From the IMG/VR virus record IMGVR_UViG_3300037493_003170, positions 1 to 49,757 of that record: a stretch of DNA of 49,757 nt; one strand, written 5' to 3'. The notes beneath the pieces were generated by a model. The model searched no databases. It saw only the letters and a list, made by a program, of their open reading frames with translations, and was not told the origin of the DNA. Below, in pieces: positions 3,079-32,789 of the stretch; within the stretch, counting starts at the first letter, position 1; every line of letters begins with the position of its first letter. The translations under genes were made by a program, and so were the position numbers. The stretch is from a virus.

Positions 3079-3080
3079 TT

Positions 3081-4431: not shown

Positions 4432-4432
4432 A

Positions 4433-6412: not shown

Positions 6413-6441
6413 TTGACATAGGGAAGTCAGCGTGGTATAGC
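6413..6441 (+). promoter_or_regulatory. Sigma-70-type promoter for the HNH endonuclease gene
   Basis: TTGACA at 6413-6418, a 17-base spacer, then TATAGC at 6436-6441. This is close to the consensus. The next ATG is at 6448, six bases after the -10 box, so transcription would begin at or beside the start codon and give a leaderless or almost leaderless message. The box overlaps the end of the polymerase gene. Confidence 0.65.
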
Positions 6442-6447
6442 TTTTCC

Positions 6448-6959: not shown

Positions 6960-7157
6960 ATGTTTGGCTACTCCGACGAATTTCTAGGCACAGTTACGCC
7001 GCCTCTTTCCCGCGACAAGGCGGTTGTGGTCGCCGCGATCCTGAAGCATTCGATCAGCTACCCGCACCATGAGGAGATCAAGGTGTCGGTCGATTCGGGG
7101 AACCGGATGCTGTGGCTGAACGGGATTCTCTATACGTTCAAGGAGCTGGGGTTTTAG
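6960..7157 (+). CDS. Small hypothetical protein closing the replication operon
   Basis: A 65-residue product that starts two bases after the HNH stop. Longer readings upstream run inside the HNH gene and are shadows. The sequence has a central helix (RDKAVVVAAILKH) and a strand pair (IKVSVDSGNRMLWLNGILY). I do not recognise it. Its stop overlaps the stop of the leftward giant gene, so the two transcripts converge with no intergenic space. Confidence 0.6.
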   Translation: MFGYSDEFLGTVTPPLSRDKAVVVAAILKHSISYPHHEEIKVSVDSGNRMLWLNGILYTFKELGF

Positions 7158-13100: not shown

Positions 13101-16100
13101 ACCGCCGAGGCCGTCATGTGGACCGTGCCCCAAGCGATTTTGGTGGGTGAACCGTCCTTGTTGATGTGGTCTTTCCCGAAACGCCCGTCGGGGGTAATCA
13201 TCGCATAGGATCTGGGATTGTAGGTCTCATCGTAAAGGCGGATGAAAAAAGCTTTATCGAGGATACCGAGATCCTCGAACTTGCGCCCCGTCAGTTCCTT
13301 GAGACGCTGCCCATGCTCGAAGAGTTCTTCGCGGACACCGTCAATGATGAGATACTTCTTGCCCTTGGCCTGCTCCTTCTGTGCCGCGTCCATCTTGGCG
13401 GCGGCGGCTTGCATCTCGGGGCCAAACACATCGGTCTTGCGGTTTTTGCCTGTCCAGATGTCTAGCACGCGCTCGGCGAGAGATACATTCTGGAACCAGT
13501 CTTTCTGGGGCGACAAAGCGGCGATCACACCGGCGACAGACTCGGTGGAAACGGCATACTGTTCAGACCACATGTTAGCGATCCTGTTGGCCCCCTTATA
13601 CCACTTCTTCGACTCGGTGCGGATGTTCTCAGGCACACTGTCATACACGAAGAGAATGTTATCCGTCATCTGCTTGAGGATTTTCTTACCGATCTCCTCA
13701 ATGCTCAGGTTATCCAAGCTGCCCGCACGGAAGACGTGATGGCTCATAAGGCGTTTAACAATCTTCGTAAACGCCGCCTCGTTGGCCTTGAGCTTGCGGT
13801 AGGAAAGATCGCTCGCCGGAGCCTTGTCCGTGCCTTGTTTCGCAGGGATCTCCGACTGGGGTTGTGGCGTGTGGGTCTCAGGAAGCTGTTCGAGCGTATC
13901 CATCCCCACCACACGAGCGGCCACACGATCCACAGGCTTGCGCTTGATGTCATCCTGCATCGGCGAGGCGTTGGTGCTGGAAGGGAGTGCTGCACGACGA
14001 CCATTTACGTTGCGGCGAAGATCGGACAGCATGGTCAGGCGGCGGTTGTCGGCACCCCCCGTCAGACGGCGAAGTGTGGTATCATCGAGTTTCTCGGTGA
14101 CAGCCATCATGTCGCTCGGACTGACACGCGCCAGCACGTCCACAATCTCACGAGCGGAAAGCTTGCTCTTCTGGATGTTGCGGACAACCATGTTTCGCTG
14201 CTCCTTCGAGAGAGAGCTTGGGACAGTCCCAGCGGTGCGCTCAACACCTTGGAACAGCTCACCCTGCACAAGGCTGGGCTGGGTCGTTGGAGCCTCCTGC
14301 CCCGGCAAACTGGCCGGACGGGTGCCAGCGGCAGCAAACACCAACAGTGCGGCGTTCACATCGTTCGGGTTCTCGATGACCGCTCTGGCGATGTCCTCGA
14401 TAGGGGCGTTGCGGAGGTCTTTTTTGTCCTCAGTCTTGTCCACCGTAACTGCTTCAGCCTTAGGTTGTTGCGCTGGTTTTGGGGAGGGCTTTGTCCCTAC
14501 TTCTTGACCTTCACCTTCCCGCTGTGCAGCTCCTTTTTGAGCTTGGCCTTCTGCTGCGGGTTGAGCGGGCTGTTTTTGCTCAGGAGCAGGCCGACCTGTT
14601 TTTTCGATTTTTCTTTCATTGGTTGTTGGGGTTGTGAGTTGTGGTGTGGCGGGTTTTTGCGCGGAAGGTTGCGCGGGATTTTCATCAACCAACGCCTTGT
14701 CCTGCGCCTCCATAGCGTCGTAGTCAACTTCCGGGGTGTAGATCATCGTCTCGCCATCTTCCTGCAACTCAAAACCCTGTTTTGAATACCAGTTGATGAG
14801 CGTAGGCTTCGACATCTCATCCGAAGGTTCAACCGTGAGTGAGATCGGTAACTGCTTCTCATCGGCCACACGCTTCAAATCGGTGATAGCCGCTGTGGCA
14901 CGACCCTTTCTTTGCTGCGACTTGTCAGTGGTGATCCCGAGAAGTTGGATACCGGATTTGTTCTCTTCCACGCGAAGGTCAACGCCGTTGGTTTTTGCAG
15001 CAGTGGCTACCGCCGCAACCCCTCCCGCCTCTGGAGAGGGCGCGGTCGGCACAGCCGCAGTCGCGGTGGGTGTGGTGGGTGCAGGGACCACAACCGGCTC
15101 ACTAGCAGCACCCGGCTGCTGAGATTCTTTGGCGAAGACAATGGCTTTGACCTTCTTGACAAAGCTGGGGGCCATACCTTTCCAGTTCTTGTCGAAGTCC
15201 TCTTCGGTCCAATCGAGAACCTCTTCGGCGGCACCAAGTTCTTCGAGTTGCTTTGCTTTCGCAGCGCGGGCCGGATCTACTGCCGGTGTGGTTACTGGAG
15301 GCGTAGTATTTTCCACTTTGGCTTTCTCACCCACAACCTTCACCGGCTTCAGATCAAACCCATAGCGATCAGCCACAGCCTTGTGATCCATGTTGTCCCC
15401 AACGTTCGCTTCGAGGAAGTCGAGTTCCTCCTGCTCCTCCTTGGTGAGTTCTTGCGGGCGATCTGAAAAATTGACAGCCTCCCCCGGCATTGGCTCACGA
15501 CCTTCTTTTTTGCGAAGAAGATCGGACCGTCTCTTGGAGGCCGCTATTTCAAGTCCCCTGTTAGAAATGAGTTTCAGCTCCACACCCCACTCCCCGGCAA
15601 GTTCTTCCGGCGCGGCCTCGGCCAAGGTCTTCTTCTCCTCGGGGTCCTCGGTCAGCTCGATCTGCGCGGCTCTTTCGCGTTCAATTTCTGCCAAGCTAAC
15701 TGGGCCTGATGTCGGGAAAGCCCTTCCCGCTGTTTCAGCTTCAGGAAGGTTTTCTTGGGTGGCACGGGCGGTGTATTCTTCATCGGATAGGTCATGGAGT
15801 TCTTCGGTAGTCTTGTCGCGTGTGGAAAGGTTTTTAACGTCGCCAACGAGAGTGATTGTCCCTTTTGTTCCAGCAATACTGCCGGAGGCAAAAGCAGTGG
15901 CGATGATTGTATCGCCGATGGCTTTGCGGACCTGCTCGTCCGTCATGTCGGGATTGAGCTGCTGCTGGACGTGGACAGCGTCAAGGGCTGTGATGAGGCT
16001 CTCCTCGAAAGCTTCCGAGATCGGGGCGAGCGCAAAGTTGTCAGCAGCTCGCAGCACAGCGGCAGAAGCGGATTTGGCGAAGGCTTCCCGTGTGGCTTTT

Positions 16101-17587
16101 GACGCAAGGGCCTTGCCCATATCTTCCACACCTTTCAGCCCAATCATGCTCATCCCTGTGGTGACTCCGAACTCGCTCAAGAAAGACTTAGCGGCAAGTT
16201 CCCCAGCACGCGCACGAATGGCAGGGTCGTCGGACTGGGATGCACGCTCCCAAGTGTCCAACGCCTGTTCACCGCCGTAGATTGCTGCCGTAGGCGCGAC
16301 AGTGAGACCGGCCTTGACTCCGCCTAGAACAGCGGCTCCAACCTTGCCAGCGCGGGCTATGCGCTCGGCCTTGATGAGGTTCCCCGCACCACCGGTTACG
16401 GCGGTGAGAGCTACCGACTCCACAACGGAAGCCGCACCTTGACCGATACTCGCAGCATCTGTTCCGAAGATCCGAACCTTGTCCTGCTGGATCTTGTCGG
16501 AGAGGGCGTTGATACCGTCAATGCGCTTGGCCTCGTCTTCCGCGACTTTCTTGAACTCGCCCGCGACGGCTCCGATAAAGGGGTCTTCTGTGGTTTTTTG
16601 TTTGGCCCACATTACATCCCCAACTCTACCAAGAGCGTAAGGCGCAACCCCCGAAAGAGCCTGAGCCGTCTTCGACTTGTTCGTGGCATCAACAATCTTG
16701 CGGTAGTTCTCGTTGATGTCGTCGCCGAGACCAAGCTCCTTTGCAAGCTCGGGGAAGTTCTGCTTGGCGGTTTGCACTACGTTCTCTTTGAAGAGGGCCA
16801 CACGCTGCGGAGCCTCGTCCTTCGCCTTGGCTTTCGCCTGATCGGGAAGATTGGACTTGTCCACAATGGCTTCGATCTCATCAGTGTTCTTGACAAGCGC
16901 ACTGTCCTTGAAGTGAAGAGTTCCGAAGGCATCACGGGAGACATCGCCCTCATACTTGTTGAGGCGATGGCGCATGACATCATCGACTTCCTCGGGAGCG
17001 AGGTTGAAGTCCTTGGAGACAGTGTCGCGGAGCTTTTCGTAGCGGACCTTGTCCTCGGCAGCTTTCTTGGAGAAGGCTCCGAACGTGACCCCATCAGCCG
17101 CAACCGTGGCTGCGCCCTTGAGACCGCCTTCTCCACCGAAGTAGCCGCTGTCCGAAGCGTAGCGGTCGAGTGCCTTCCACGTCGGCTCCATCTCTTTCGC
17201 AACCTCCGGCTTGAACAGGGAGAAGGTCTTGTCGAGCTGCTGGCGTTTGGCTTCGAGTTCAGCCTTGCGTTGGCCGATCATTTGCTCGCGCTGCTGTGGT
17301 GATTCCCACCCGCCGTCAGCGTCGAGGTTGTTGACCACAAGCTGAGTCTCGGCCTGATCGCGCTGGAACTCCAAGGCACGCTTGGAAAGGGGGTCGGCTG
17401 AAGCAAGTGCCGCTGTGGATTCCAACGCCCTGCGCGAAGCCTGCGCCTGCGACTCACCCCACTTATCGCCGGGGTTCTCGCGTTGATAGGCGTTCCAATA
17501 CTTGTCGTTCAGCGCAAGCTTTTCTTCGGCGGAGGCGTTTGCGAAAAATGGGTCCTTGATCGCGTCAGAGTATTTCGGAAGAGGCAT
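7154..17587 (-). CDS. Giant multidomain polyvalent protein (3477 aa), probable ejected virion protein
   Basis: The ATG at 17587 lies eight bases after the previous stop; a longer reading needs a TTG start inside that gene. Visible domains, in order: a helical N-terminal region with Gly/Ala-rich hydrophobic stretches (about residues 380-440 and 563-583); a GNAT-like domain (about 866-956, with QQRKGRATAAI); a DUF7178-like domain (about 1300-1680, with ALSPQKDWFQNV); an ADP-ribosyltransferase-like domain (about 1755-1920, with RGYHGTAYKF, LGYDGYYES and FSPENIKSA); a zincin-type HEAGH motif (about 1966); a small domain ending near 2497; a long charged coiled-coil region (about 2550-3040); and a C-terminal domain typical of large polyvalent phage proteins. 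Four LFQ motifs mark module borders. Such proteins are known to enter the host with phage DNA. That this one is ejected is inferred from its place last in the virion gene row. Confidence 0.85.
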   Translation of the reverse strand: MPLPKYSDAIKDPFFANASAEEKLALNDKYWNAYQRENPGDKWGESQAQASRRALESTAALASADPLSKRALEFQRDQAETQLVVNNLDADGGWESPQQREQMIGQRKAELEAKRQQLDKTFSLFKPEVAKEMEPTWKALDRYASDSGYFGGEGGLKGAATVAADGVTFGAFSKKAAEDKVRYEKLRDTVSKDFNLAPEEVDDVMRHRLNKYEGDVSRDAFGTLHFKDSALVKNTDEIEAIVDKSNLPDQAKAKAKDEAPQRVALFKENVVQTAKQNFPELAKELGLGDDINENYRKIVDATNKSKTAQALSGVAPYALGRVGDVMWAKQKTTEDPFIGAVAGEFKKVAEDEAKRIDGINALSDKIQQDKVRIFGTDAASIGQGAASVVESVALTAVTGGAGNLIKAERIARAGKVGAAVLGGVKAGLTVAPTAAIYGGEQALDTWERASQSDDPAIRARAGELAAKSFLSEFGVTTGMSMIGLKGVEDMGKALASKATREAFAKSASAAVLRAADNFALAPISEAFEESLITALDAVHVQQQLNPDMTDEQVRKAIGDTIIATAFASGSIAGTKGTITLVGDVKNLSTRDKTTEELHDLSDEEYTARATQENLPEAETAGRAFPTSGPVSLAEIERERAAQIELTEDPEEKKTLAEAAPEELAGEWGVELKLISNRGLEIAASKRRSDLLRKKEGREPMPGEAVNFSDRPQELTKEEQEELDFLEANVGDNMDHKAVADRYGFDLKPVKVVGEKAKVENTTPPVTTPAVDPARAAKAKQLEELGAAEEVLDWTEEDFDKNWKGMAPSFVKKVKAIVFAKESQQPGAASEPVVVPAPTTPTATAAVPTAPSPEAGGVAAVATAAKTNGVDLRVEENKSGIQLLGITTDKSQQRKGRATAAITDLKRVADEKQLPISLTVEPSDEMSKPTLINWYSKQGFELQEDGETMIYTPEVDYDAMEAQDKALVDENPAQPSAQKPATPQLTTPTTNERKIEKTGRPAPEQKQPAQPAAEGQAQKGAAQREGEGQEVGTKPSPKPAQQPKAEAVTVDKTEDKKDLRNAPIEDIARAVIENPNDVNAALLVFAAAGTRPASLPGQEAPTTQPSLVQGELFQGVERTAGTVPSSLSKEQRNMVVRNIQKSKLSAREIVDVLARVSPSDMMAVTEKLDDTTLRRLTGGADNRRLTMLSDLRRNVNGRRAALPSSTNASPMQDDIKRKPVDRVAARVVGMDTLEQLPETHTPQPQSEIPAKQGTDKAPASDLSYRKLKANEAAFTKIVKRLMSHHVFRAGSLDNLSIEEIGKKILKQMTDNILFVYDSVPENIRTESKKWYKGANRIANMWSEQYAVSTESVAGVIAALSPQKDWFQNVSLAERVLDIWTGKNRKTDVFGPEMQAAAAKMDAAQKEQAKGKKYLIIDGVREELFEHGQRLKELTGRKFEDLGILDKAFFIRLYDETYNPRSYAMITPDGRFGKDHINKDGSPTKIAWGTVHMTASAVSMLENPSLDNISKELGHAHKIRSFYNNIINPDSDVTVTSDTHAVAVVYMMPLSGAAKEVTDNFGGITTDGYRGTYAFITEAYRLAAKKRGVKPSEMQSVTWEAIRDIFPAAFKRNTGKVDQLREMWNNFSRGRTKESYETIRQRAYEAGGGYSFPSWYQQPELGLGDSGTSWNRTSTYSVEDSGNQSDGLRSGGGRGNGRSGKGTGARTQEGRAAGGEQGTLFQDTEVGVDDQAYLAAVEAGDMEMAQRMVDEAARAAGFIIRGYHGTAYKFTVPKGYRGVAAHLTADKEIAEDFANAAAANVRDIVDREGDQMPYESTEPIVLNLLTKGRYFDPKDTKQVELLAKETGISKQEINQADYGVFEDARVQQSLKDLGYDGYYESESGNGVITSFAVFSPENIKSADPVTYDEQGNVIPLSQRFNPESRSILFQDTEGPKGTYTPKAVAAAQNVSNTVLGLIEGKADTTTGIHEAGHAIEDFLREIGEGEKADALEAWAKENVGDDWRKKREYIARGFERFVINGVKTGVESVDRAFARIAEIMLNIYKGIKGSSVDIDIPPNIEKIFNDLLSRGAKLEAEGKKPIVLPVDIKRQAPKPKAETKAKPQPAPKRKIPARKIPAPLPFGVKREDLDAARRRYGIPERQGMVVRMTDEESLDEAYARLAKRDKGDESALVGQELVLDLMGDNRGTNKVEVALLAIHGFEIQKALKDLDNKITKLDPGETQKRKAFETLQEALFADFQDLVNITQLQGSRAGLALQAMKLVANEVYSVDAMLRRRAIWKNTGKKPGQAKDPLTPAEMRDTEKQSKKILELIKERERLMKELEDKYNREEAAAIISKKEKDVAKERKPTKPRGVLVEKAAAVATSARDRLRAMGVGVTRLSQLPETPKKKVAALLDRSGNFLELASDETHAYKAQIALKEKGNSQDINKALQVALQSGFARVVVDGNNLYVDFGESKNTLTPSQRKALITHAESVGYTSITTDNYNGSKVVWEADTLFQDSESTQVEILDALSDVGTEYLAGNAKTIEAFTEKLVSEFGEEFRDQAETVFGLAKDKLAKLASTARQKTPQELSSLIDPSKGISEKMVYNMALGFMRQGLKGEAVLDAVTKLLQNDYPNLTREEVVVAFTNYGRVKNVSQEQLKVDIRELKVVERLGAQLLDIAKGFFPKKTGLPRDPTTSPVRSLMKQIKQAMIDAGMNYTEEQDKKTRLAGARDAIKRQLENQLRDMKYAIDERIRIDRPKRDPVTDPILDDLKKRRDEMLVEYRAIFGIDSKKISLEAQIKRASKMLDRQINLLEAEMRGEILDKPTKVKLDSPELKAKRERLESLREAKRIAQEARNPKKTAAEIATNRLYDSVNKSIERFEYFIKNGTYPPTAKGVAPTLNSVLKEMMATRDRLRDTVREIQKDRRILTPPEVIARRRAIVQLNKTIADLNARIAKRDFSKRAKKPESTDPAVRNLKATVVSLRATLDQLKKDALKPTSPEEKRIQRMIAASKKRKENYERRLAAGDFAKAVKRDTKEDSRLTQTKIDEAKAKAEWLEEGRKYAIANMSASQRFWHYVGGAFKLRKITTLGFELGIGMRQAYFYTLRAWANPIKVTTTFAKAFSGMFSRDKEIAYYNDVIDRPNSVYDKRMDLRFMSPFADLDRMQEADAIDPELMETINKKLPKFIPLRWVTELGLGVERFNRIVTNLTRAQMADTLIEKGIRDEGNPSKDELAIIGNAVMNATGRGSLKNPSLDAGLALANTVTISARWAVSRAKMNALEPIWTRRASFDGTMKIRATVAADVYGKAIVGRAILGTVIVGIVRAITPDDEEEDIVWNPTSGKFGGISYKGTMIDLGGGMRPYINLLAQGIMGYKLNSKGEVIPLRGEGSIGFGKQDFRDSLYDFVRNRENINMAMILDTITQKHFGDIAMTPTSFTRQLLEPIIVEDLVNIFETHGVRDGSVLATALFFGVGVRTPWEKTEKKEPEYNWIRF

Positions 17588-17595
17588 GAGTGTTT

Positions 17596-18783
17596 TTACC
17601 GCAATTCGGGAACATTCCAAGGACTATTTGAAGGGGGTGTGGTCGTCGATCCAGTCATCCCGAACTTCTTCTGCGCGTAATTCCATACGCGTTTACGTGC
17701 AGCTTTTCCAGCCGGACTGAGGCCGGGAACCTTGTTGACATACTCATTTTCTTCCATGTTGGAAGCAGATGTCAGCTCGTTTGACACCTTATCTTTTTCG
17801 TAAAGTTTGGCTTCTTCAACTTGCTGAGATGTTGGATTCTTTCCAACGGGAGGAGGGAAGAAGGTCTTGTTGTCAAACAGTCCCAATGTTTCTTTTTCCT
17901 CTGCTGTGGTCGAAGGTGCTTTTGGTGCATCAGGCTTCGCAGTAAGGCGCATCTCCTCATCCTTCAGCTCTTGGCTTCTGACTTCAGCGTTGACCCGCGC
18001 CTCGCCTTGGAGAGCAGGGTCTTTCAAGTCCATTTCCACTCTTGCACGCTCCTCGCGAGTTTTACGAAGATTGTCGGGTGCCGGAGTTTCCGCAGGACTG
18101 AGCATATCAGCGGAGGACGGAACCTGCCGGGGCAATCTTGGGTTTTGATCTTCCACATCAGCTATGATGTTTTTAGACCGAGTATCGGCGGCATTATCTT
18201 TGACACCGAACAGGTTACGGGCACCTATCATATTACCCTCATCGCGCTTGAGTTTTTCGTTCGCCACGATCTCAGGATTGTTAATTGGCGTTCCTGTTCC
18301 TGTTCCTGTTCCTGTTCCTGTTCCTGTCCCATCACCATACCGCTCACCGAACCGCAGTAAATCCTCCGCACGCTTACGCTTTTCCTCTTCAGCCGCAGCT
18401 TGCTCAGACTCAAATTGAGACTCAAGCAGTCCCATTTTCCGGCTCTGGATGTCCCGAGAAAAAGCATCATTGGCAGAAATTCTTGATTGTGTCTGCTGAT
18501 CCAAACCATACCGGCGATCCGACTCGAAGGCGGAGCGGTTGAAACGCATGGCATCTTCCATGTCCTGCTGCGTGTTCTCGGCCCTGCGCTGCATCAGGTT
18601 TGTCTCCTGCTGACGCATGGCGAAAAGGTCCCGTTCCTGTGCGAGCTGCTTGTCGGCCATCGAACGCCCGAGCGAAATCGCTTGGTTCATAATGCTGCTA
18701 ATTGCCTCGGGACCGGCACGCAGAAGACCCTCAATGGAGTTCGAGCCATTGTTCTGAAACATCTGGATTGGTGATAGAGCCAT
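17596..18783 (-). CDS. Internal virion-like protein with coiled coil and Gly-Thr repeat
   Basis: A 395-residue protein that I do not recognise by family. The first 170 residues are strongly helical and rich in Gln, Arg and Glu (SMADKQLAQERDLFAMRQQE, then EEEKRKRAEDLLRFGERY), which suggests a coiled coil. A Gly-Thr repeat follows, encoded by a six-base microsatellite, and then a charged, probably disordered second half. It is placed between a RlpA-like protein and the giant polyvalent protein in a row of close-packed late genes. That position and the helical composition resemble the internal core or ejection proteins of podoviruses. Confidence 0.6.
   Translation of the reverse strand: MALSPIQMFQNNGSNSIEGLLRAGPEAISSIMNQAISLGRSMADKQLAQERDLFAMRQQETNLMQRRAENTQQDMEDAMRFNRSAFESDRRYGLDQQTQSRISANDAFSRDIQSRKMGLLESQFESEQAAAEEEKRKRAEDLLRFGERYGDGTGTGTGTGTGTGTPINNPEIVANEKLKRDEGNMIGARNLFGVKDNAADTRSKNIIADVEDQNPRLPRQVPSSADMLSPAETPAPDNLRKTREERARVEMDLKDPALQGEARVNAEVRSQELKDEEMRLTAKPDAPKAPSTTAEEKETLGLFDNKTFFPPPVGKNPTSQQVEEAKLYEKDKVSNELTSASNMEENEYVNKVPGLSPAGKAARKRVWNYAQKKFGMTGSTTTPPSNSPWNVPELR
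18289..18330 (-). repeat. Hexanucleotide microsatellite encoding Gly-Thr repeats
   Basis: About seven tandem copies of a six-base unit (GTTCCT on the + strand) lie in frame in the internal virion protein gene and encode alternating Gly and Thr. The unit is two codons long, so slippage would change the linker length without shifting the frame. Confidence 0.85.
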
Positions 18784-21125: not shown

Positions 21126-22114
21126 ACTGCGTATCCGGGGAGTGATTTACGGGGCACCGCTGCGGCACCACGGTAAGGGTTTTCGTCCTGCATGGCACGG
21201 CCACGAAAACGACTCATCTCACTGAGAATGAGTCGTTCCATCTCCTGCCGGTCGAGCTGGGCGCGATTGATTTCTTTGACTTCGGTTGTGGCCTCCCCGA
21301 ATTTGAAGTAACGGGATGCGGCTTCGATGATGAGGCGGTTGCCAAGTTCAACAATGTCGTGGTCGAAAAACACGTCCCGGTAGCGGCGGTTCCCATGAAG
21401 CAAGACCACACCCGTCGGGCAGATCGAGCGGAGCTTCATCCGGCGATAGCTTGGGACGGTCTCCCACGGCACGTATTCGGAAAGTTCGTAGCCATCGTCC
21501 TGCATGAGCCTGACGCTGCCCTTGCGGTTGCCGGGAAGGGACACGCTGTGGATCTTGGAAACCTTGACTGGCGAAACCACAAAACTGTCACCGATGAGGT
21601 CGAAGCAGATTTTCTTGAGCCTGCCGGAAGCGTCGGTCGCTTCCATGTTCACAACCTTGCCCGTATCATCCGTGCTGGTAGCGAACAACTTGACCTTCGT
21701 GGTTTTCTGGAGGTCACGCTCGGTCGGAAAGGTTTCCGCCATCATCAGGGCTTCGACACGCCCTTGACCATCGACACCAAGGCCATTGTGGGCCTCGCGC
21801 CAACGGGAACGGAGCTTGAGGGACTGCCCGTAGCTGAAGACAGCCTCGGGACCGGCGACATCCTCGGGGAGGGTGAAACCTTGGTATTCCTCCACACAAT
21901 CGCCGAGATTACACTCCTTGAACTTGGCTACGCAGATCGTGTGAAAAACGTCATCGAAAAGCTTGAATTTGTCGTATTCGGTATAGACCAAAAGACGATA
22001 CTTGTTGATGTATTTGACAACCTCGGCTCTATCAGAAGACCAGTCGAGGCCCATCGCCTCGGCCACGATTGGACCGGCTTCTGCAACGGTGATAGGATTT
22101 ATGCCGAGGGCCAT
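21122..22114 (-). CDS. Structural protein, possible tail adaptor
   Basis: A 330-residue protein not recognised by family. The N-terminus is helical (ITVAEAGPIVAEAMGL, then DRAEVVKYINKYRLLVYTEYDKF), and the middle is beta-rich with many short strands. The C-terminal part returns to helix (LGNRLIIEAASRYFKF, LDRQEMERLILSEMSRFRGRAM). It overlaps both neighbours (four bases downstream, sixteen upstream) and lies between a beta-rich tail protein and the gp13-like protein. A head-tail adaptor or tail protein is a reasonable guess by position only. Confidence 0.55.
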   Translation of the reverse strand: MALGINPITVAEAGPIVAEAMGLDWSSDRAEVVKYINKYRLLVYTEYDKFKLFDDVFHTICVAKFKECNLGDCVEEYQGFTLPEDVAGPEAVFSYGQSLKLRSRWREAHNGLGVDGQGRVEALMMAETFPTERDLQKTTKVKLFATSTDDTGKVVNMEATDASGRLKKICFDLIGDSFVVSPVKVSKIHSVSLPGNRKGSVRLMQDDGYELSEYVPWETVPSYRRMKLRSICPTGVVLLHGNRRYRDVFFDHDIVELGNRLIIEAASRYFKFGEATTEVKEINRAQLDRQEMERLILSEMSRFRGRAMQDENPYRGAAAVPRKSLPGYAV

Positions 22115-23520
22115 CTTTCTTCAAAAGGTTGGTTGTTGAGCCTGAAGTAGTCGTCCTTTGGAGTATCCACCACATAGCTTTGCTTCCTGCCATCCTTGAT
22201 GACGGTCGGGGAAAAGTCAAGTTGCAATAAGCGAAGCTCCATTTCGCCAATTCCTGTCAAGCGAATTTGAATCCAAGTGAACTCGGCGCACTTCTTGGGC
22301 GGCTTGCCGAAAGACTCGGTGAAGAGGATTTTCTGGCCTTCGGTAAGCGGCTTGGGAGGGGCCTCGACAAGGTGCCAGCGTTGCCATTCGAGGCACGCAT
22401 CCGTGCGGCATTCCACAAGAAGCTTGGAGAAAGTCTGACCGCCGAGAACCTCCATCGCAAGGCCGAGGCAACTGTTTTTGGACATCAGGCCGGAGGGCGC
22501 GATTTGGCCGGTGATAAGCTCCCACTCGATAGGGATCTCGACGGCATCGCGCAAATCAACGGTGCTTAGGGAGTTTATCTTTGAAACATAAACTTCACCC
22601 CCTTTGTCCGAAGCGATGAATCGAAAGCCATCCTCGCTGGGGTCTTCCGTGTGGTCAATGAAGCAGTGGATTCCAGCGATTCCCGGATCGGGCAACCACA
22701 ACCCCTCCCAGATTGCGATGGGCGTGCGGTCATCGGTGAAAGTAAAAGCTTGGTTCCACGAGACAAATCCTTTTCCGAAAGAACCGGAAGAATGGTCGTA
22801 ACTCATTGATAATCCAGTAGTTGCAAACATTCGGTCGCCACGGAACCAGAAGCCACATGCCGCACCTTGGAGGTTCGTGTCGGCAGCGAGCAACGGCTCC
22901 ACGTCGGAGGAGAGCTTGTTGACGTTTTCGCTGCGGAAGGTTTCCACACCGGCCATGATGCTCAGGAAATGAAGGCCTTTGGTCGAACGGAAAAGGTGGT
23001 CGCGCTGAAGCACGGCGACGGCGTAGCGTCCAGTCGCGGAGACGGAGTTAAGCATGTGGTTGACAAGACGCTTGGTGTCCCAGCCCTTCTGGATGACTGT
23101 GCCCTTGCCGTCGTGGCGGGTCTCGCGGGGAACCTCGAAGGTGTTGAAGCTCACGACCCCGTGTTCGTAGTAAGCCACAAGCACACCCTCGCCGTTTGCG
23201 CTGTTCATCGCCGGGAGGACAGCCATTGCCTTGAGATCGCCGAGGCGGGAGTTCGTGGACAGCGGCTCCCCCATCGAGAGGAGGTTCTGCTCCTCCATGA
23301 GCAGAATGTCGCTGGACATCAGGTGCCCACGCTTGTGGATGAGATCCGAGACGTAGATCGTGTGGCCGATCTCCTGATGGATGCGCCCGTGCGCGTAGAT
23401 CCCCAGACCGGCGTTGTTCTCAAGCCAGTTGCGAAACTTGTCCTCATCGAACGAATCGTGCGAGGCCTCCTTCGTGTGAAGGGCCTGCGCTCCGAAATAT
23501 GGTGTGAGGTTTTCGCTCAT
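22099..23520 (-). CDS. Beta-rich tail protein (propeller or nozzle-like)
   Basis: A 473-residue protein dominated by short beta strands with repeated aromatic and Gly turns: GLGIYAHGRIHQE, GEGVLVAYYEHGVVSFNTF, GRYAVAVLQRDHLFRS, DRTPIAIWEGLWLPDPG, FIASDKGGEVYVS. The spacing suggests a beta propeller, as in the tail nozzle or tubular B proteins of podoviruses. It follows the glycosyltransferase pair with a four-base overlap. I infer a tail role from fold pattern and position. No catalytic motif is seen. Confidence 0.55.
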   Translation of the reverse strand: MSENLTPYFGAQALHTKEASHDSFDEDKFRNWLENNAGLGIYAHGRIHQEIGHTIYVSDLIHKRGHLMSSDILLMEEQNLLSMGEPLSTNSRLGDLKAMAVLPAMNSANGEGVLVAYYEHGVVSFNTFEVPRETRHDGKGTVIQKGWDTKRLVNHMLNSVSATGRYAVAVLQRDHLFRSTKGLHFLSIMAGVETFRSENVNKLSSDVEPLLAADTNLQGAACGFWFRGDRMFATTGLSMSYDHSSGSFGKGFVSWNQAFTFTDDRTPIAIWEGLWLPDPGIAGIHCFIDHTEDPSEDGFRFIASDKGGEVYVSKINSLSTVDLRDAVEIPIEWELITGQIAPSGLMSKNSCLGLAMEVLGGQTFSKLLVECRTDACLEWQRWHLVEAPPKPLTEGQKILFTESFGKPPKKCAEFTWIQIRLTGIGEMELRLLQLDFSPTVIKDGRKQSYVVDTPKDDYFRLNNQPFEERWPSA

Positions 23521-24101
23521 TTGAATGGCGGGTATGAAATAGCTTTACCCAGTTTTTCGGGCCATGTCCACTCGTTATCGCTGCGCTCCCTGTCGCCGTG
23601 CTGGTAAAACCTATAACCCTCCAGAATTTTAACCTCAAAATGATTCCGATGACGACGATATTGAATCCTGTGGTCAACTGACATCTGCACCATGTTGACG
23701 GGGTTCACACAACGAATATGCTCCTCCAAAAGAACGGCGGCAGACGCTGGGGTTACAACATAGGCGTGAGTATTACATCTTTCAGTGAAGAACAAAACTT
23801 CGTTACCGAAAAACTCGTCAACGTGATCGTTCAGTTTTTGCCAATCAATCTCAGCATCGCATAAAACATCATCTTCAAAAATCAATACGTTTTCTTGAAG
23901 CGCGATACACTTCATCCACGCGAGAGCGTGGGAGGCGCGACAGCAAAGATCGCCCCGGCACTCGACATAATCGGAGACGAAATGATTCTCGTCTTTGTCA
24001 ATAGCGTCGAGATATTCAAACGGACATCCTTTGCCCACCCCCTCGATGAACGAGCGGTGCCGGTCAATTCTACGCGCAATGTGTATGCAGAGGATTTTCA
24101 T
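23517..24101 (-). CDS. GT25-family glycosyltransferase (second copy)
   Basis: A 194-residue GT25-type enzyme. I start at the ATG that overlaps the upstream stop as ATGA; a GTG three codons earlier is less likely. It keeps the family order: ILCIHIARRIDRHRSFIEG at the N-terminus, CRASHALAWMKCIAL, then VLIFEDDVLCD, the E-D-D that binds metal and sugar nucleotide, and a late Y-V-V-T-P-A-S-A segment. GT25 members transfer galactose or related sugars to LPS or, in animals, to hydroxylysine of collagen. It is diverged from its neighbour copy and Cys-rich. The tight coupling between the pair and the Ser-Gly-rich protein upstream suggests that protein as the acceptor. Confidence 0.8.
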   Translation of the reverse strand: MKILCIHIARRIDRHRSFIEGVGKGCPFEYLDAIDKDENHFVSDYVECRGDLCCRASHALAWMKCIALQENVLIFEDDVLCDAEIDWQKLNDHVDEFFGNEVLFFTERCNTHAYVVTPASAAVLLEEHIRCVNPVNMVQMSVDHRIQYRRHRNHFEVKILEGYRFYQHGDRERSDNEWTWPEKLGKAISYPPFK

Positions 24102-24802
24102 TTCCACCACCCTTCGTCATTCCACCATTCTTCAGGCTTTTCCTGACCGTTAATTTGGGAAGGCCCCGCCGCCTGACCGCAAAGCCACGGATGGGCCGCA
24201 AGGATGATCTGCTGGCCGCGTTCGTGGAGGTAGCCGAGCTGGTGGTCAATGTGGGGGAAGAACTCCTTGACCTTGTCCTTCGGTGCGATGTGCTTCGCAA
24301 GATAGTCCGGCGCATGAAGGATATGCTGATAGAACTTCAGCATGAACTTCCTGTTGATCGCCATCGCGTGCGTTCGGTTGACGTTCCGGCACCTGACCAC
24401 ACCCTCGGCGTAAGGCCACGGTGGGGAGGTCTCCTTGTAGAGGTGTTGCCCGCCAAGATAAAGCTGATCCCACTGAACGCCCTTTAGAGTCTCCATTGTC
24501 TTAGCCAGCCGGTCGCAGAAGTCGTCCGAGAAAACCACATCGTCCTCGAAGACAAGGTAATTCTGCAACCCGTCCATAAGGGCCTGCTGCGCGATCCCAG
24601 CGTGCGACATGAGACAGCCCCACGCACCGTTACCGGCACGCCACCAAGCCGGGTGACAACAGGCATTGCCGTGGACACCACGGTATCTCTCGAAGCCGGT
24701 GATGCCTTTCTCGGCAGCGCGTTCTTGGAACTGTTCCCAACGCTCGGGATTTTTGTCGAGGTTGATGACGAAAGTTCTGCTGAAGTAGTTAGTAAAGTTC
24801 AT
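24098..24802 (-). CDS. GT25-family glycosyltransferase (first copy)
   Basis: A 234-residue enzyme with clear GT25 features: FVINLDKNPERWEQFQE at residues 12-28, GCLMSHAGIAQQAL at about 62-75, and YLVFEDDVVFSDDF at about 82-95 carrying the E-D-D motif. A long C-terminal part has AMAINRKFMLKFYQH and FFPHIDHQLGYLH, where D-x-Q matches the second acidic motif of the family. It starts two bases after the stop of the Ser-Gly-rich virion protein and overlaps the second GT25 gene by four bases. The host surface or the phage's own tail protein could be the target. Confidence 0.9.
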   Translation of the reverse strand: MNFTNYFSRTFVINLDKNPERWEQFQERAAEKGITGFERYRGVHGNACCHPAWWRAGNGAWGCLMSHAGIAQQALMDGLQNYLVFEDDVVFSDDFCDRLAKTMETLKGVQWDQLYLGGQHLYKETSPPWPYAEGVVRCRNVNRTHAMAINRKFMLKFYQHILHAPDYLAKHIAPKDKVKEFFPHIDHQLGYLHERGQQIILAAHPWLCGQAAGPSQINGQEKPEEWWNDEGWWK

Positions 24803-24804
24803 GG

Positions 24805-27009
24805 TTAAGGCGCAGAATAAATTCTAAATGTCATCGTTCCCTCGTTATCATCATAAAGTAGGTCGTAGAAATAGAAACAATAATCACCTGCCTTGTCTGC
24901 ATCGACTGTGAAGGTTTTGGGACTCATCGCTTCAGCACTCTCTGTTGCCGCCGCCTCTGTTTCTGCTGCACCAGTAACAAATACCCCTCTCCGAGGACCA
25001 TCCGGCAACAATCTTATGTAAAGAGCAACTATGTATTTCGGAAGTATGCTGTCATCGGGTCGAAATTGAGCCACACCAGAAATATATTCACAAATATAGT
25101 CCCCCGCTGGGAGCGTGAAAGTTGAGGCACACGCGGATGTTGTGGCATTTAACGTAATCGTTTCATCGAAGCTGGAGCCAGAGCTGGAGCCAGAGCCAGA
25201 GCCAGAGCCAGAGCCGGAGCCGGAGCTGGAGCCGGAGCTGGAGCCGCATCCTGTGCAAGGTCCGAAGGTGTATTCAATGCCCCCGTAAGTAATTGGGCCG
25301 GTGTTTGGACAGTCAACACTATCATACCACATGGCTTCTCCCTCCGCCCCAACTGGACCCACACTCAAATACCAGTCTCCTTCGTCACGGATCAAAACAA
25401 CACCCTGATCCAGAACAAGGTCGTAGTAAGAATAAGCATCATTTTGTGGCGAATAATTCATTTCAGCACACACTTCCTCCCCGGTGCCGGGGCGTATGTA
25501 ATTGATCTGAACACAACAAGGAGATCCAGAGCTGGAGCTAGAGCTGGAGCTGGAGCTGGAGCTGGAGCCGGAGCTGGAGCCGCATCCTGTGCAAGGTCCG
25601 AAGGTGTATTCAATGCCCCCGTAAGTAATTGGGCCGGTGTTTGGACAGTCAACACTATCATACCACATGGCTTCTCCCCCATCCACAGATAAATACCAAT
25701 CTCCTTCGTCGAGGGTGAGTGTAATATCTTCAAATGTGTAAACCCCGTCGGCAAACGTCATCTCAGCACAAACTTCCTCCCCGGTGTCGGGGCGTGTGAA
25801 ATTGATCTGAACACAACAAGTAGAGCCAGAGCTGGAGCTGGAGCTACCGCCACCGCCGCCGCTAGTTGAGCCGGAGCCGGAGCTGGAGCCAGAGCCGGAG
25901 CTGGAGCCGGAGCTGGAGCCAGAGCCGGAGCCAGAGCCGGAGCTGGAGCTGGAGCCAGAGCCGGAGCCAGAGCCAGAGCCGGAGCCAGAGCCGGAGCTGG
26001 AGCTGGAGCCGGAGCCAGAGCCGGAGCTGGAGCTGGAGCCAGAGCCGGAGCTGGAGCTGGAGCCGGAGCCAGAGCCGGAGCTGGAGCTGGAGCCAGAGCC
26101 GGAGCCAGAGCCGGAGCCGGAGCTGGAGCTGGAGCTGGAGCCAGAGCCGGAGCTGGAGCTGGAGCTGGAGCTGTAATCAGGATCTTTGCAAAGCAATACA
26201 AGAATGTCTCTTTCCCCGCCAACAAGAAGTTGGGGGTCAACACAGGTATCGAACTCATATTCCACACCTTCTCCGGTGATGACAAATGGGACATCCTCGG
26301 CGGGAAGATAGCCGAGTTTCCTGACATCGTAATTGTAGGAGCGCGAAACTGGATTTAACGAAAAGCGGCCCTCGTCATCGCCCATTCCCGAATATGCTCT
26401 GTGGTTGTTGTGGCGGATCTCCCACAGAGGCTCGGGGATCGGTTCGCGTGTGTCGCAGTCAAGAACGAGGAAACGAAGCTCGATCCCGCTTTCAGGGAAG
26501 CCAATCTCGCACTCAGGAATATCAGCGACGGGTGCCACATATTCAATCTCCTTGATGGGTGTCTCGCTCTCAACCCAATCGACTTCGTTCATGCCGGGGC
26601 TACGTGTTAGGGTCATACCATCCCACCAAAACGTATCGCAATTCGGGCTTTGAAACACGAGATAGTTCTCGGCTTGGAAAACGTGGACATCCTCGCAACA
26701 TCCAAGTGATTCACCGAGAGGGTGACAACCAAGGATCGGAACCCCATCGACCACAACGGCAATACCGGAAAGTGCCTGCGAGAGAGGTGCGGCGGAGATC
26801 CCCCGGCGCGGGCGGAAACTGGCAGCTCCGTTGAACTGACCTACGGCACCAGTAGTAGTATAGACAAATCCGGGGCGTGTCTTGACCACGCCCTCATCGA
26901 AGACAAGATTGGTAGCCGAGTGAACCCTCCGCTTTTCCCCTACAAGAAGCGGGCTGGACTTCATGTCCACACCTTGCGTCCCGAGCTGGATGATGTTGAT
27001 TTTAGGCAT
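24805..27009 (-). CDS. Modular virion protein with long Ser-Gly stalks and repeated Cys modules
   Basis: A 734-residue protein from the ATG at 27009; a GTG at 27030 would extend it further into the upstream gene. Residues 1-280 are beta-rich and begin like podovirus tail proteins ([19 protein letters not shown]). Then comes a stalk of about 117 residues made almost only of Ser and Gly, a Cys module ([29 protein letters not shown]), a second Ser-Gly stalk, a second copy of the module, a third stalk and a beta-rich C-terminal domain of about 130 residues ending in FRIYSAP. The layout is that of an adhesin or fibre with flexible stalks. Ser-Gly is a common O-glycosylation context, and two glycosyltransferase genes follow directly. 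Confidence 0.85.
25241..25342 (-). repeat. Copy 1 of a near-identical coding repeat in the Ser-Gly protein
   Basis: These roughly 100 bases match 25577-25678 without a difference that I can see. The copies are offset by 336 bases, or 112 codons. They encode the C-terminal half of each Cys module. The flanks of the modules have diverged, so this part was duplicated recently or is kept alike by gene conversion. Confidence 0.9.
25577..25678 (-). repeat. Copy 2 of a near-identical coding repeat in the Ser-Gly protein
   Basis: Partner of the repeat at 25241-25342. It encodes the segment from near the [13 protein letters not shown] part through the FGPCTGCG end of the Cys module, followed directly by a Ser-Gly tract. 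Confidence 0.9.
25822..26172 (-). repeat. Ser-Gly-encoding low-complexity repeat (long stalk)
   Basis: About 350 bases of GAGCTG/GAGCCG/GAGCCA-type units encode the first stalk. Units of six bases or multiples keep the frame, so slippage would alter stalk length and not the reading frame. Shorter tracts of the same kind lie at about 25527-25585 and 25162-25246. Confidence 0.95.
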
Positions 27010-27757
27010 CTGCTGACCAATGGTAGCCACTTACGGAGTTCCACTTCAAGATCGAAGTTACCGTTGGTGTCGGCAGAAATTCGGCGACGGATGCGAAAGA
27101 TCCTTCGGGGTCACACACGTCGCCCACGGTGGCAACTGGCTTGACCACAATGATACCCTCGCCTTGAAGCGTGGACAGGCAGCGGATTTCGTTCTCGTCG
27201 CCGTTGGCAGCAATATGCTTGTAACCGATGATCTCCAGTGTCGTGCGCCTTGGCAAGAGACCCTTCACACACTTGGGGATCTCCTCCACAGGAGTCTGGA
27301 CGAACTGCTTTGCGGAAGCGTCCCACAACGTCAGGCTGTCCTTCTCGGGCGTGCCTTGGATCGCGTGCATGTCACCGAGGCAATCGGCGATGACTTGGAA
27401 CTTGAAAGGCAGCGGCTCACCGGGAATCGGTGTGGACGAAGGCGTTTGCTTCCAGAAGTTGTGGTAGAGTTGAGTGACCTTCAGCGGAACCGATTTCACC
27501 ACGCTGGCGAGACCCTCAACGATCTTGATGAATCCCGAACCCGAGAAACGTGCGAGCTTGTCGCCCTTTCGACCGAGGATGACAATCTCATCGACAGAGC
27601 AAGTGGAATCGAGCCAAGTGCTTGCGAGCGTAGTGCCCTCGCTGTTGTCCGACTTGAGCGAATCGTCCGTGGTCGGACAAACGCGGCAAAGCGGGACTGT
27701 CTGCGGGGTGGCGCAGGTATCAGCGAGGGTCGGGAGTTGGTTGCAGTTGCAGGACAT
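27002..27757 (-). CDS. Hypothetical structural protein with Cys-rich N-terminus
   Basis: A 251-residue protein that I do not recognise. The first 30 residues carry five cysteines (SCNCNQLPTLADTC, then PLCRVCP), and the rest is a mix of strands and short helices (VDEIVILGRKGDKLARF, TTLEIIGYKHIAANGD). It follows the small lipoprotein gene and overlaps the start of the Ser-Gly-rich protein by eight bases. Cysteines are frequent in this tail block (also in the Ser-Gly protein and the capsid linker), which hints at zinc sites or disulfides in the particle. A tail-tip or adhesin assembly role is inferred from position only. Confidence 0.55.
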   Translation of the reverse strand: MSCNCNQLPTLADTCATPQTVPLCRVCPTTDDSLKSDNSEGTTLASTWLDSTCSVDEIVILGRKGDKLARFSGSGFIKIVEGLASVVKSVPLKVTQLYHNFWKQTPSSTPIPGEPLPFKFQVIADCLGDMHAIQGTPEKDSLTLWDASAKQFVQTPVEEIPKCVKGLLPRRTTLEIIGYKHIAANGDENEIRCLSTLQGEGIIVVKPVATVGDVCDPEGSFASVAEFLPTPTVTSILKWNSVSGYHWSADA

Positions 27758-30160: not shown

Positions 30161-30895
30161 TTATGCAGTGTAGTTTTGTCCAAGGACTTGTCCAATCCAA
30201 CTTGTTCCATCAGCCTTGAATTGGAGCATGTCAAATTTGCTGGCGGTTACTGTGATGGTGGGTGCCGAAGCTCCCGGCCATTTGACTCCAGTAAAGGCGG
30301 CGGTAAAGCTGCCTGCGCCGGTAAATAGTTTGAGCGTTAGTGTCTTTCCTGCCGTCGCAGTGGGCATGGTAAATACGCAGTTCCCTGTGAGGGTGCAAAT
30401 CTGGAAAGTGCCGGAGGTCAGCACAAGCGTTTCCAGCGTGCCACTAGGTCCAATGTTGATCGAAGCTTCAGTGGGGTTGACAAGCGTTTGGTTTGTGGAC
30501 GTGCCGTCGGCTATTAGAACCCTGAGGGCATCTGCGGCGATTCGAGCAGCCTCCTCCGCAGCCGCATCGGCAATGCGGTCGGCGATCTCTTGGTCAAGCG
30601 CGTTGGCTACGACTTGTATCTGCGAAACCACAGCGGTTCCGCTGAGGATTGCTCCCGTGGTAAGAAGGCTGACCACAAGAAGATCGGCCTCATCATACTC
30701 AATGTTGTAGGAAGTGGCAGTCTCGCAGTTGACCTTGGTGATGGGGTGCTGGATCGTCCCGAAAATGAACTCGGGCCAACCGGGGTTCACGTCCTGATCG
30801 AGGAACAGTTTGACCTGATCGCCAACCTGAGCTTCCGGTCCCGTGTCGTATTGATACAGGGCGGGTTCGACAATAAGATCTTCGAGGAGTTCCAT
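30161..30895 (-). CDS. Fibre-like virion protein with coiled coil and beta C-terminus
   Basis: A 244-residue protein, first in the leftward transcript after the capsid terminator. The N-terminal 85 residues are mixed and acidic. Residues about 95-130 form an Ala-rich coiled coil (ALDQEIADRIADAAAEEAAR). The C-terminal 100 residues are a beta domain of a kind seen at the ends of phage fibre proteins (GNCVFTMPTATAGKTLTLKL, GVKWPGASAPTITVTASK, FKADGTSWIGQVLG). A trimeric fibre with a head or tail anchor at the N-terminus fits. A shorter protein at 44470-44853 has a similar beta domain. Confidence 0.6.
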   Translation of the reverse strand: MELLEDLIVEPALYQYDTGPEAQVGDQVKLFLDQDVNPGWPEFIFGTIQHPITKVNCETATSYNIEYDEADLLVVSLLTTGAILSGTAVVSQIQVVANALDQEIADRIADAAAEEAARIAADALRVLIADGTSTNQTLVNPTEASINIGPSGTLETLVLTSGTFQICTLTGNCVFTMPTATAGKTLTLKLFTGAGSFTAAFTGVKWPGASAPTITVTASKFDMLQFKADGTSWIGQVLGQNYTA

Positions 30896-30974: not shown

Positions 30975-32789
30975 TCAGGAGTTGTCAACAAGTGTGACAG
31001 TGGTGACGTTCGCGCCAGTTCCGAGGGTTGCGCCGACCGGAGTGGTAAGCGTGACCGTGAAGGTCTGATCGGTTGCAGCAACGGCAGTCGCGAGGATGTC
31101 GATCTCGATGAACTTCGGATCGTTGTCGCCCGCTTCCCATTCCAACGTGCCGGTTCCGTCGAGGAAGTCGGTGTCGTTGGTGGTGACGTGGGCGGTCGTC
31201 CAAGTGACCGAAGCTGCGCCAGCGTTTCCACCGGTGCGGTTGACCGCGATGCGGAGGGTGTAGGCATCGCCCTCGAACACCGTAGTAGCGGTTCCAGCAG
31301 GGGAGAGACCCAACACGGAAGCGTCGGCGGACTCAGGAGCCACGCACTCGCCATCGTGTTCAGCGACCTTACCGCACTGGGCGCACTCGGCTTGCGAGCA
31401 GGCATCGGCAGCGGTGGTGTCGAACTCTTCTGGTCCGGCGAAGTTGTCGATACCGGGGCCGTAGTTGCGCTCGGTGACTTCGAGAACGTAGCCGGGGCGT
31501 TGGCTGTGGCGATAGGCAATGAAGCCCGAGAACTCGGGGTATTTTGCCTTGAAGCGGAACTCGTGGCGAGCGGCAAGCTTGAACTTGTCGTTATGCTCGT
31601 TGCACGAGAGGAAGCTTCCGTCCACAACCTTGACCGCGTAGTTCACGCCGGAGTTGTCTCCGCCGACAGGCTTGATGGGTTTCATCAAACCGTAACGCTT
31701 GAAGGAGCGCGGGTCAACGTGAGGGATCAGCGTGACCATGTCATGCTTGATGCCGTCAACCACAATGGAATCCTTGCGGTATTGGTGGTTGGTTCCGGTG
31801 ATGAGACCGCCATCCTCACCGAGGGTGTTGACCCAGTCGTAAACACGAACGAAGGCATAGACGGGGTTTCCGCCAGCGGTGCCGGTCTGCTTGAAGTAAC
31901 CACGGATCGGGGTCTCGTTGAAGTAGCACTTGATACCGCCGTAGGTATCATACATGCGTCCCTTCATCGGGCCTTCGGTGTCCTTGAGTTGATCGTTGAG
32001 ATACTGCGTTCCGGTGATGTCGCGCTCGATTTTGTCTTTGATGACTGCGTCCTGCCAGTCAAGGCGGGGCATTTCAACTTCGAGCATGTAATCCTCGGAA
32101 GCCGCGAAACCGCGACCGCGAAGTTCGGCCATGATGTGATCGCGATAGTCCTGAAGGAAGTGAATCGTGATGCGATATTGTGGAGGGGCTTGCCATCCAC
32201 CAGCGGACACGTTGAACTGATCTCCTGCGAGAACCGAAGCGTTGGCTTCACCGTGACGGATCACGAGGTTCAGGAGGTTGTCCGAGAAGTTGGACATACC
32301 CCAGCGGGTGAATTGGTTCTTCATGCCGTTGAAGTAGCCACGAATGTGGGCTTCTCCAAGACGGTCGAGTTCACGAGCGCACTTGACGGGAGTATCGAGC
32401 GAAAGCTCGAAGTCCTCGAACTCACGGATACGGAAGCCCTGCGAAAAGTCGATGGTGTGCTGGCCGTGGCAAGCATTGTCATCAATATCGTTGGTCAGGT
32501 TTCCGAAGATACCGTTTGTGCCGTGGAGGGTGCGACCTTTGAAGTCACCACCCTCAACGAGGGCACGCTCGGAATGATCGACGGAGTTGTAGGCCACGGA
32601 AGCCTGTTTGGCCTCGCCGTAAATAACGGACGAGCTGTTAGCATTGCGACGAACGACCCCACCATCGGGGATCATACGAAGTGCGAGATTCGGGGAGTCT
32701 TTAATCTCCTCACGGACGATGTCGGTGATTACCTCGGTCTGCTCGTAAAGGGCAGCGATAATCTTGTCTGGATTACATGCGGTTGACAT
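30975..32789 (-). CDS. Major capsid protein with C-terminal Calx-beta domain
   Basis: A 604-residue protein, assigned as major capsid by place (after portal and scaffold), size and its own promoter and terminator. Residues 1-455 are the presumed capsid fold (EQTEVITDIVREEIKD start; long arm; repeated Trp/Tyr strands). Residues about 460-482 hold a Cys cluster (CSQAECAQCGKVAEHDGEC), perhaps a zinc knuckle. Residues about 493-604 read like a Calx-beta domain: TTVFEGDAYTLRIAVNRTGG, ASVTWTT, GTGTLEWEAGDNDPKFIEI, QTFTVTLTTPVGATLG, VTTVTLVDNS. Calx-beta folds are known from exported adhesion proteins. Here it would be displayed on the capsid surface. I could not confirm the capsid fold directly by motif. 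Confidence 0.78.
   Translation of the reverse strand: MSTACNPDKIIAALYEQTEVITDIVREEIKDSPNLALRMIPDGGVVRRNANSSSVIYGEAKQASVAYNSVDHSERALVEGGDFKGRTLHGTNGIFGNLTNDIDDNACHGQHTIDFSQGFRIREFEDFELSLDTPVKCARELDRLGEAHIRGYFNGMKNQFTRWGMSNFSDNLLNLVIRHGEANASVLAGDQFNVSAGGWQAPPQYRITIHFLQDYRDHIMAELRGRGFAASEDYMLEVEMPRLDWQDAVIKDKIERDITGTQYLNDQLKDTEGPMKGRMYDTYGGIKCYFNETPIRGYFKQTGTAGGNPVYAFVRVYDWVNTLGEDGGLITGTNHQYRKDSIVVDGIKHDMVTLIPHVDPRSFKRYGLMKPIKPVGGDNSGVNYAVKVVDGSFLSCNEHNDKFKLAARHEFRFKAKYPEFSGFIAYRHSQRPGYVLEVTERNYGPGIDNFAGPEEFDTTAADACSQAECAQCGKVAEHDGECVAPESADASVLGLSPAGTATTVFEGDAYTLRIAVNRTGGNAGAASVTWTTAHVTTNDTDFLDGTGTLEWEAGDNDPKFIEIDILATAVAATDQTFTVTLTTPVGATLGTGANVTTVTLVDNS

Follow-up and report, generated by a model that had tools for sequence, protein, structure and literature searches.

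Does a virus that encodes a long serine/glycine stalk, and directly behind it two glycosyltransferases, use these enzymes to sugar-coat its own particle? The question is raised by a cassette in an IMG/VR virus record (IMGVR_UViG_3300037493_003170), analysed here over its whole length of 49,757 bases (the window), in which a Ser/Gly-stalk protein, hereafter the adhesin, is followed by two genes of glycosyltransferase family 25 (GT25; enzymes 1 and 2). We put at roughly 0.7 the probability that this is a phage self-glycosylation cassette, in which enzyme 1 O-glycosylates the Ser tract of the stalk and a partner enzyme elaborates the sugar. Because otherwise unrelated viruses repeat the pairing of stalk gene and enzyme, these viruses probably sugar-coat their own stalks.

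Architecture of the cassette and predicted fold of enzyme 1

The adhesin, the proposed acceptor (24805-27009, minus strand, as are all its parts), is a protein of 734 aa whose open reading frame (ORF) spans 24805-27030; the ATG at 27009 was taken as the correct start because the relatives begin at the matching residue. Its N-terminal ~180 aa (26491-27009), common to sister phages, form a conserved domain that is probably the virion anchor. No fold or family was assigned to this domain through Pfam, PHROGs or a PDB profile search, and family searches with the adhesin gave sub-threshold matches only in Pfam and none in PHROGs; gene order and the shared N-terminal domain suggest that the protein is tail-like. 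The main stalk (25819-26172) has 118 residues, namely 79 Ser, 37 Gly and 2 Thr, written chiefly in alternating [AGC or GGC]-[TCC or TCT] codons. It is followed by a first copy of a Cys-containing module (25582-25818), a second stalk of 20 residues (25522-25581), a second copy of the module (25246-25521), a third stalk of 25 residues (25171-25245) and a C-terminal tip domain (24808-25170), which has no BLAST match in the sister adhesins. Both module copies were recognised by inspection of the translation. One long stalk with two shorter ones, as an earlier sequence-only reading of this DNA had described, is thus what the protein contains.

We consider the adhesin frame genuine, because the non-repetitive upstream sequence has homologues, similar Cys modules separate the stalks, and the stalks of relatives vary their Ser codons. 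The stalk DNA of the window is a hexamer-like repeat; in the stalks of six relatives Ser is written with five or six of its codons, of both kinds, so that selection on serine appears likelier than pure DNA slippage. As a separate observation, Cys often borders the Ser tracts, lying within six residues outside the tract in 30 of 53 tracts from the window and the clade loci defined below (8 near-copies excluded), compared with a mean of 16.1 and a maximum of 24 over 1000 shuffles of the non-tract residues; such residues could be disulfide pins or metal sites.

A gap of 2 bases separates the adhesin stop from the start of enzyme 1 (24098-24802, minus strand), which overlaps enzyme 2 (23517-24101, minus strand; start ATG at 24101) by 4 bases (ATGA), in agreement to the base with the spacing read earlier. 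Both exceed the curated Pfam cut-off of 24 bits for Glyco_transf_25 (PF01755), with 47.7 and 44.2 bits, respectively, and their initial naming as GT25 enzymes therefore stands. EDD occupies residues 86-88 of enzyme 1 and is invariant in 38 of 38 sequences; FEDD is visible in the translation of enzyme 2.

The AlphaFold model of enzyme 1 (pLDDT 90.2) superposes best on residues 335-562 of COLGALT1 (Z 22.4, 2.4 A, 195 residues aligned), other matches being mimivirus R655 (Z 17.6) and the GT25 beta-1,4-galactosyltransferase 8xkd (Z 17.4). A PDB profile search likewise placed COLGALT1 first (E 7e-20), followed by mimivirus R655 (2e-16) and the GT25 beta-1,4-galactosyltransferase (1e-6). In the available part of the source, the 335-562 region is the active domain of COLGALT1, with a metal site at Glu435-Asp436-Asp437 (PMC13382579). 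As modelled, enzyme 1 has a GT-A-type fold and carries the EDD metal-binding motif, as expected of GT25. It thus appears to be a GT25 of the collagen-galactosyltransferase type, and by analogy with COLGALT1 it would depend on a metal and on a UDP-sugar as donor.

The PHROG matches of the enzymes are labelled glucosyltransferase, and phage glucosyltransferases that act on modified DNA bases are known, as the available part of one report indicates (PMC12619734). That the present enzymes glycosylate modified bases of the phage DNA is nonetheless hardly credible, given that their genes lie behind the adhesin, away from the replication genes at 587-6957, and that the nearest solved structure, COLGALT1, is a protein-modifying enzyme.

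When 50,697 phage records were searched with tblastn, enzyme 1 gave one weak match (29%, in an uncultured phage of 484 kb), while the adhesin and two unnamed window proteins, p473 and p763, gave none. Enzyme 2 matched eight, of which seven are from Synechococcus phages, annotated 2OG-Fe(II) oxygenase, and one is from a Roseobacter phage. That its closest annotated relatives are cyanophage proteins with this label is a hint of GT25-hydroxylase fusions, as in collagen modification.

Association of enzyme 1 with serine-rich genes

From a profile scan, 80 of 111 viral and 80 of 100 cellular confirmed loci were kept. ORFs were called longest first with limited overlap, those with at least 12 Ser in 25 residues were counted as Ser-rich, and loci scoring at least 99 bits to enzyme 1 were taken as its clade. 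A same-strand Ser-rich ORF was found at 22 of the 30 viral loci of the clade and at 0 of the 50 below it, or, in clusters at 80% identity, in 15/22 versus 0/39 (Fisher 2.4e-9); these locus counts include L028, a longer record of the window's own virus. With a stricter cut-off of at least 15 Ser, the viral clade count was 20/30. Among cellular loci, the corresponding figures are 8/16 (7/13 clusters) in the clade and 1/64 (1/49 clusters) below. The comparison suggested by the sequence-only reading, whether GT25 enzymes track with Ser stalks, thus has a positive outcome for the enzyme 1 type, across phages that are otherwise unrelated.

The association is also one-sided. Counted by rank from the glycosyltransferase gene, with near-copies included, Ser-rich genes occupy position -1 in 12/25 cases, -2 in 11/34, -3 in 5/34, -4 in 7/27, +1 in 1/30 and +2 in 1/27, with none at ranks -5 to -7 and +3 to +7; 35 of the 37 lie one to four genes upstream. 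One group of 44 rows (support 98/47, the second value being weak) takes in 25 of the 26 Ser-linked rows of a 97-row tree, and 10 label changes are observed where shuffles give a mean of 23.0. This tree, built from 97 of the 160 loci after exclusion of 6 near-copies and of short matches, needs no score cut-off and keeps the Ser cut-off.

The window and parts of nine records, one of them from the same virus, together have 674 ORFs; 13 of these are Ser-rich, and 12 of the 13 lie by the glycosyltransferase. Because the records were picked for carrying the pair, this count speaks only for the rarity of Ser tracts at other places. In three cellular contigs, 4 of 7 Ser-rich ORFs, among 219 ORFs, lie by the enzyme. 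Ten further loci, seven from a Planctomycetota draw and three from known genomes, were viewed over at most ~1.5 kb on each side, and a Ser-rich ORF on either strand was present in 4/10.

Sister phages of the window were reached by a search with p473, which gave three relatives at 51% identity, and by searches with the unnamed protein p604 and with enzyme 1, which gave more. Five of them (L010, L011, L012, L021, L024) have the same cassette gene order as the window. Their adhesins align with that of the window over the first ~180 residues only (38-41%, BLAST) and continue with nearly pure Ser stalks and a different tip; glycine, which the sequence-only reading had named as part of a common O-glycan context, is therefore not essential. 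Enzyme 1 follows the adhesin at 60-65% identity, and the gene after it encodes a methyltransferase-transferase fusion (L010, L011, L021), a GT8-like and GT25 fusion (L012, L024) or, in the window, the short GT25. The earlier view of a GT25 pair as the unit consequently has to be changed: one GT25, enzyme 1, is the conserved partner of Ser-rich proteins, and enzyme 2 holds a variable position, swapped among close relatives or fused. The proposal that the enzymes act on the protein encoded just before them gains from the tracking of enzyme 1 with Ser-rich genes, and loses its reference to a pair.

The pairing extends to phages that share little else with the window. Of 22 window proteins compared with L022 (14 kb), enzyme 1 alone has a match there (61%); the gene of this match overlaps by 4 bases that of a 245-aa protein with Ser/Gly/Asp tracts, which another Ser-Gly protein precedes. 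In L027, a 39% relative of enzyme 1 is fused to a sulfotransferase-like domain and stands after a 295-aa Ser-rich protein, behind the tape measure gene. Enzyme 1 is the only protein common to the window lineage and the parts examined of records G010, G013 and G019, and in the tree the enzyme 1 of L030/L031 is placed within the window group, even though the L031 record (G004) matches just enzyme 1 and one further window protein. With the Ser tracts masked, the Ser-tract proteins near the clade form 17 groups, between which no similarity was detected. Among them, a 122-aa Ser-rich protein of L031 (4620-4988) groups with the sister adhesins, apparently through its tip domain, in phages otherwise nearly unrelated; this likeness may reflect a tip exchange.

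The swapping of tips and partner enzymes is what a hypervariable locus would show, and one could thus suppose a shared insertion hot spot, where Ser-rich host-range genes and glycosyltransferases gather with no mutual action. We consider this highly improbable, in view of the stability of enzyme 1 across the sister phages, of the almost invariably upstream position of the Ser-rich gene and of the lower-scoring viral GT25s, which lack the association.

Exceptions, partner enzymes and proposed mechanism

Several observations weigh against stalk self-glycosylation. Within the clade, 8 of 30 viral loci and 8 of 16 cellular ones have no Ser-rich ORF at the cut-off. At L045, of which L047 is a near-copy, and at L049 the enzyme lies behind a major head protein, and at L055 and L056 it stands, as judged by eye, beside neck/tail-like genes; L050 and L051 are without an assignment. 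L057, a Ser-free locus, sits just under the cut-off at 98.6 bits, and both the 99-bit and the 12-Ser cut-offs were picked after a first look at the data. The control group has Ser-rich cases too, on the same strand in L129 and on the opposite strand in L090 and L147, as well as a second transferase in 3 loci (near-copies). The type-24 methyltransferase occurs in 6 control loci versus 2 clade loci and is therefore not specific. For enzyme 2, PDB matches are weak only, and COLGALT1 is not among them; the partners in L036 and L044 match capsule-synthesis families. Finally, what the analysis shows is the gene order, the association with Ser tracts in phages that are otherwise unrelated, and the predicted fold and metal motif of enzyme 1, whereas the virion location of the adhesin, the acceptor, the donor sugar, the sequence of steps and the benefit are inferred.

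As for the other clade loci below the Ser cut-off, L046 has a sulfotransferase fusion and, in the gene upstream, a Ser-Gly run that reaches 9 Ser per 25 residues, L114 and L115 are truncated by contig ends, L121 adjoins a cupin/JmjC gene, and L118 and L122 adjoin genes that read as phage-like.

Given the loci behind a head-protein-like gene (L045, L047, L049) and those by neck/tail-like genes (L055, L056), a Ser tract need not be the acceptor in every case. These same loci speak for glycosylation of another virion protein, such as a head or tail subunit, or of the adhesin tip or Cys modules, with the Ser stalk as a flexible neighbour; in addition, glycans on capsid and tail tube subunits of mycobacteriophages are reported in the available part of PMC12619734. 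We regard such an acceptor as unlikely, because the non-stalk parts are the 17 dissimilar groups described above, while the Ser tract recurs, and because the phage records examined have few Ser-rich ORFs at other places.

Capsule-like partners, together with the fact that Pfam names GT25 for LPS (lipopolysaccharide) biosynthesis, would suit enzymes that alter host LPS or capsule, for instance in superinfection exclusion. The sequence-only reading held LPS change to be an equally simple alternative, but we judge it very unlikely: the closest solved relative modifies protein, two viral exceptions adjoin head genes, and the lower-scoring viral GT25s are without Ser neighbours. Moreover, Pfam showed no LPS family in the 20 window proteins scanned and, in the 10 of them nearest the cassette, no neighbouring LPS or flippase family of the kind that goes with LPS serotype conversion; no LPS operon was recognised at those clade loci without a Ser-rich ORF that were inspected gene by gene, the viral exceptions included (L111, L120 and L123 lay outside this inspection).

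A sulfotransferase domain is fused to GT25 in 11 clade loci and in 0 control loci, and a second transferase is fused in 8 clade loci and located downstream in 3 more; these fusions argue for action in one pathway. In L108 (2483-4237) and L109 (3438-4310), from a Nevskiales and a Planctomycetota genome, the Ser-Gly protein next to the GT25-sulfotransferase fusion has a Hint-like domain scoring below the cut-off.

According to stalk self-glycosylation, the adhesin would be a virion protein that is anchored through its N-terminus and has Ser/Gly stalks and a tip that varies. Enzyme 1, as the first or common enzyme, would move a sugar onto the hydroxyls of the stalk serines; this would happen in the cytoplasm of the host, either ahead of assembly or in the course of it. 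The partner, here the second, short GT25, would extend or cap the glycan. In other phages, this part could fall to another transferase, to a fusion of methyltransferase and transferase or to a sulfotransferase domain that is joined to enzyme 1, and because the partners differ, the final coat would differ between phages. The outcome would be a hydrophilic, mucin-like stalk carrying the tip, and its benefit may lie in an extended hydrophilic stalk, in protection or in a variable surface.

A wider proposal, whose chances we see as evenly balanced, is that of mobile, modular cassettes in phages and prophages. Their first enzyme would be a COLGALT1-like GT25 that acts on the Ser tracts of virion proteins with no other relationship, and exchangeable partners (second transferase, methyltransferase, sulfotransferase) would then produce mucin-like coats of different kinds, sulfated ones included. 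Such cassettes would amount to a new class of protein O-glycosylation in prokaryotes, one that recognises a low-complexity Ser sequence, not a fold, and apparently has its centre in phages of Planctomycetota.

Genomic setting and comparison with known systems

The virus of the window is also present in a longer record (G001, 64,657 bases, offset 14,936). Its presumed late block runs on the minus strand from a terminase-like gene (37597-39603), with Walker-like and nuclease-like motifs seen by eye and no family or PDB match, through the unnamed p763, p443 and p604 and a tail-fibre-like gene (30161-30895, minus strand; PHROG 9017) to the cassette, with the adhesin and both GT25 genes, and on to more unnamed genes, among them p473 (22099-23520). 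The majority of the late genes have no family match. The glycosyltransferase genes thus lie inside the presumed structural block, directly behind the adhesin, as fits phage virion glycosylation; elsewhere, their relatives are found downstream of the tape measure gene (L027, L044) or of the major head protein (L045, L049). A split tail nozzle made of the adhesin N-terminus and p473, considered by eye, is not claimed: the p473 model has a pLDDT of 37, and PDB searches with the two profiles gave nothing credible.

Among other features of the window, a conserved protein (30975-32789, minus strand; 58-61% in sister phages) with a C-terminal Calx-beta-like domain is, by its position, possibly the major capsid protein. 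An ORF of 3,488 aa (7154-17620, minus strand) with DUF7178 and a sub-cut-off match to ART-PolyVal (ADP-ribosyltransferase) perhaps encodes an ejected virion protein. Short perfect or near-perfect tandem repeats lie at 18290-18327, 48139-48178 and 49623-49671, and a tRNA search found none.

Of the cellular clade loci, 15/16 are titled Planctomycetota, the basis for the apparent centre of the cassette type in phages of this phylum. The enzyme was found at E <= 1e-20, however, in only 5 of 294 sampled Planctomycetota genomes, one being the centre genome, with at most ten candidates scored per genome; for the window phage, a planctomycete is a possible host. Searches of the open-licence PMC literature (title and start of abstract) returned no paper on phages infecting planctomycetes and no description of a phage GT25 with Ser-rich proteins.

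If the proposal is true, sugar-coated virions would become predictable from a recognisable enzyme and Ser-tract cassette, and the poly-Ser proteins of uncultured phages would be explained. The cassette would offer a compact two-gene system for studying Ser-tract decoration, and a collagen-type glycosyltransferase with a Ser acceptor in bacterial viruses would bear on the origin of collagen glycosylation.

To our knowledge, glycosylated phage particles are known from few phages. Virion glycosylation of mycobacteriophages is reportedly the subject of work by Freeman in 2023. In the available parts of two reports, mycobacteriophage-encoded glycosyltransferases modify the phage's own structural proteins (PMC12619734, PMC11256854), as we propose here; unlike the capsid and tail-tube subunits reported there, the acceptor would here be a Ser-tract protein, and the glycosyltransferase accompanies such proteins in otherwise unrelated phages. 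Phage virion glycosylation is already established; our searches of the open-licence PMC literature found no earlier description of a COLGALT1-like enzyme in this role, of a Ser tract as acceptor or of a modular cassette of this kind.

Human COLGALT1, a procollagen galactosyltransferase of GT25, is the best sequence and fold match of enzyme 1 and has the EDD metal motif in common with it, whereas its acceptor is collagen hydroxylysine and it has a second, inactive domain, according to the available part of PMC13382579. A Pfam scan of 10 window proteins at and near the cassette showed no hydroxylase family. Serine, unlike collagen lysine, needs no prior hydroxylation. The GT25 beta-1,4-galactosyltransferase 8xkd shares family name and fold with enzyme 1 and is a clearly weaker match than COLGALT1.

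In the serine-rich repeat glycoprotein loci of Gram-positive bacteria, a Ser-rich adhesin is likewise encoded next to its own glycosyltransferases and to varying accessory enzymes. GtfA/GtfB are the first enzymes of these systems and accessory SecA2/SecY2 serves export; none of these was found among the 20 window proteins scanned with Pfam, the remaining genome being unscanned for them. The two arrangements are alike in their Ser-rich adhesin, adjacent glycosyltransferases and varying accessory enzymes, and differ in that the bacterial one serves a protein of the cell wall, has its own secretion route and starts with other enzymes, while that of the window combines a probable virion protein with GT25.

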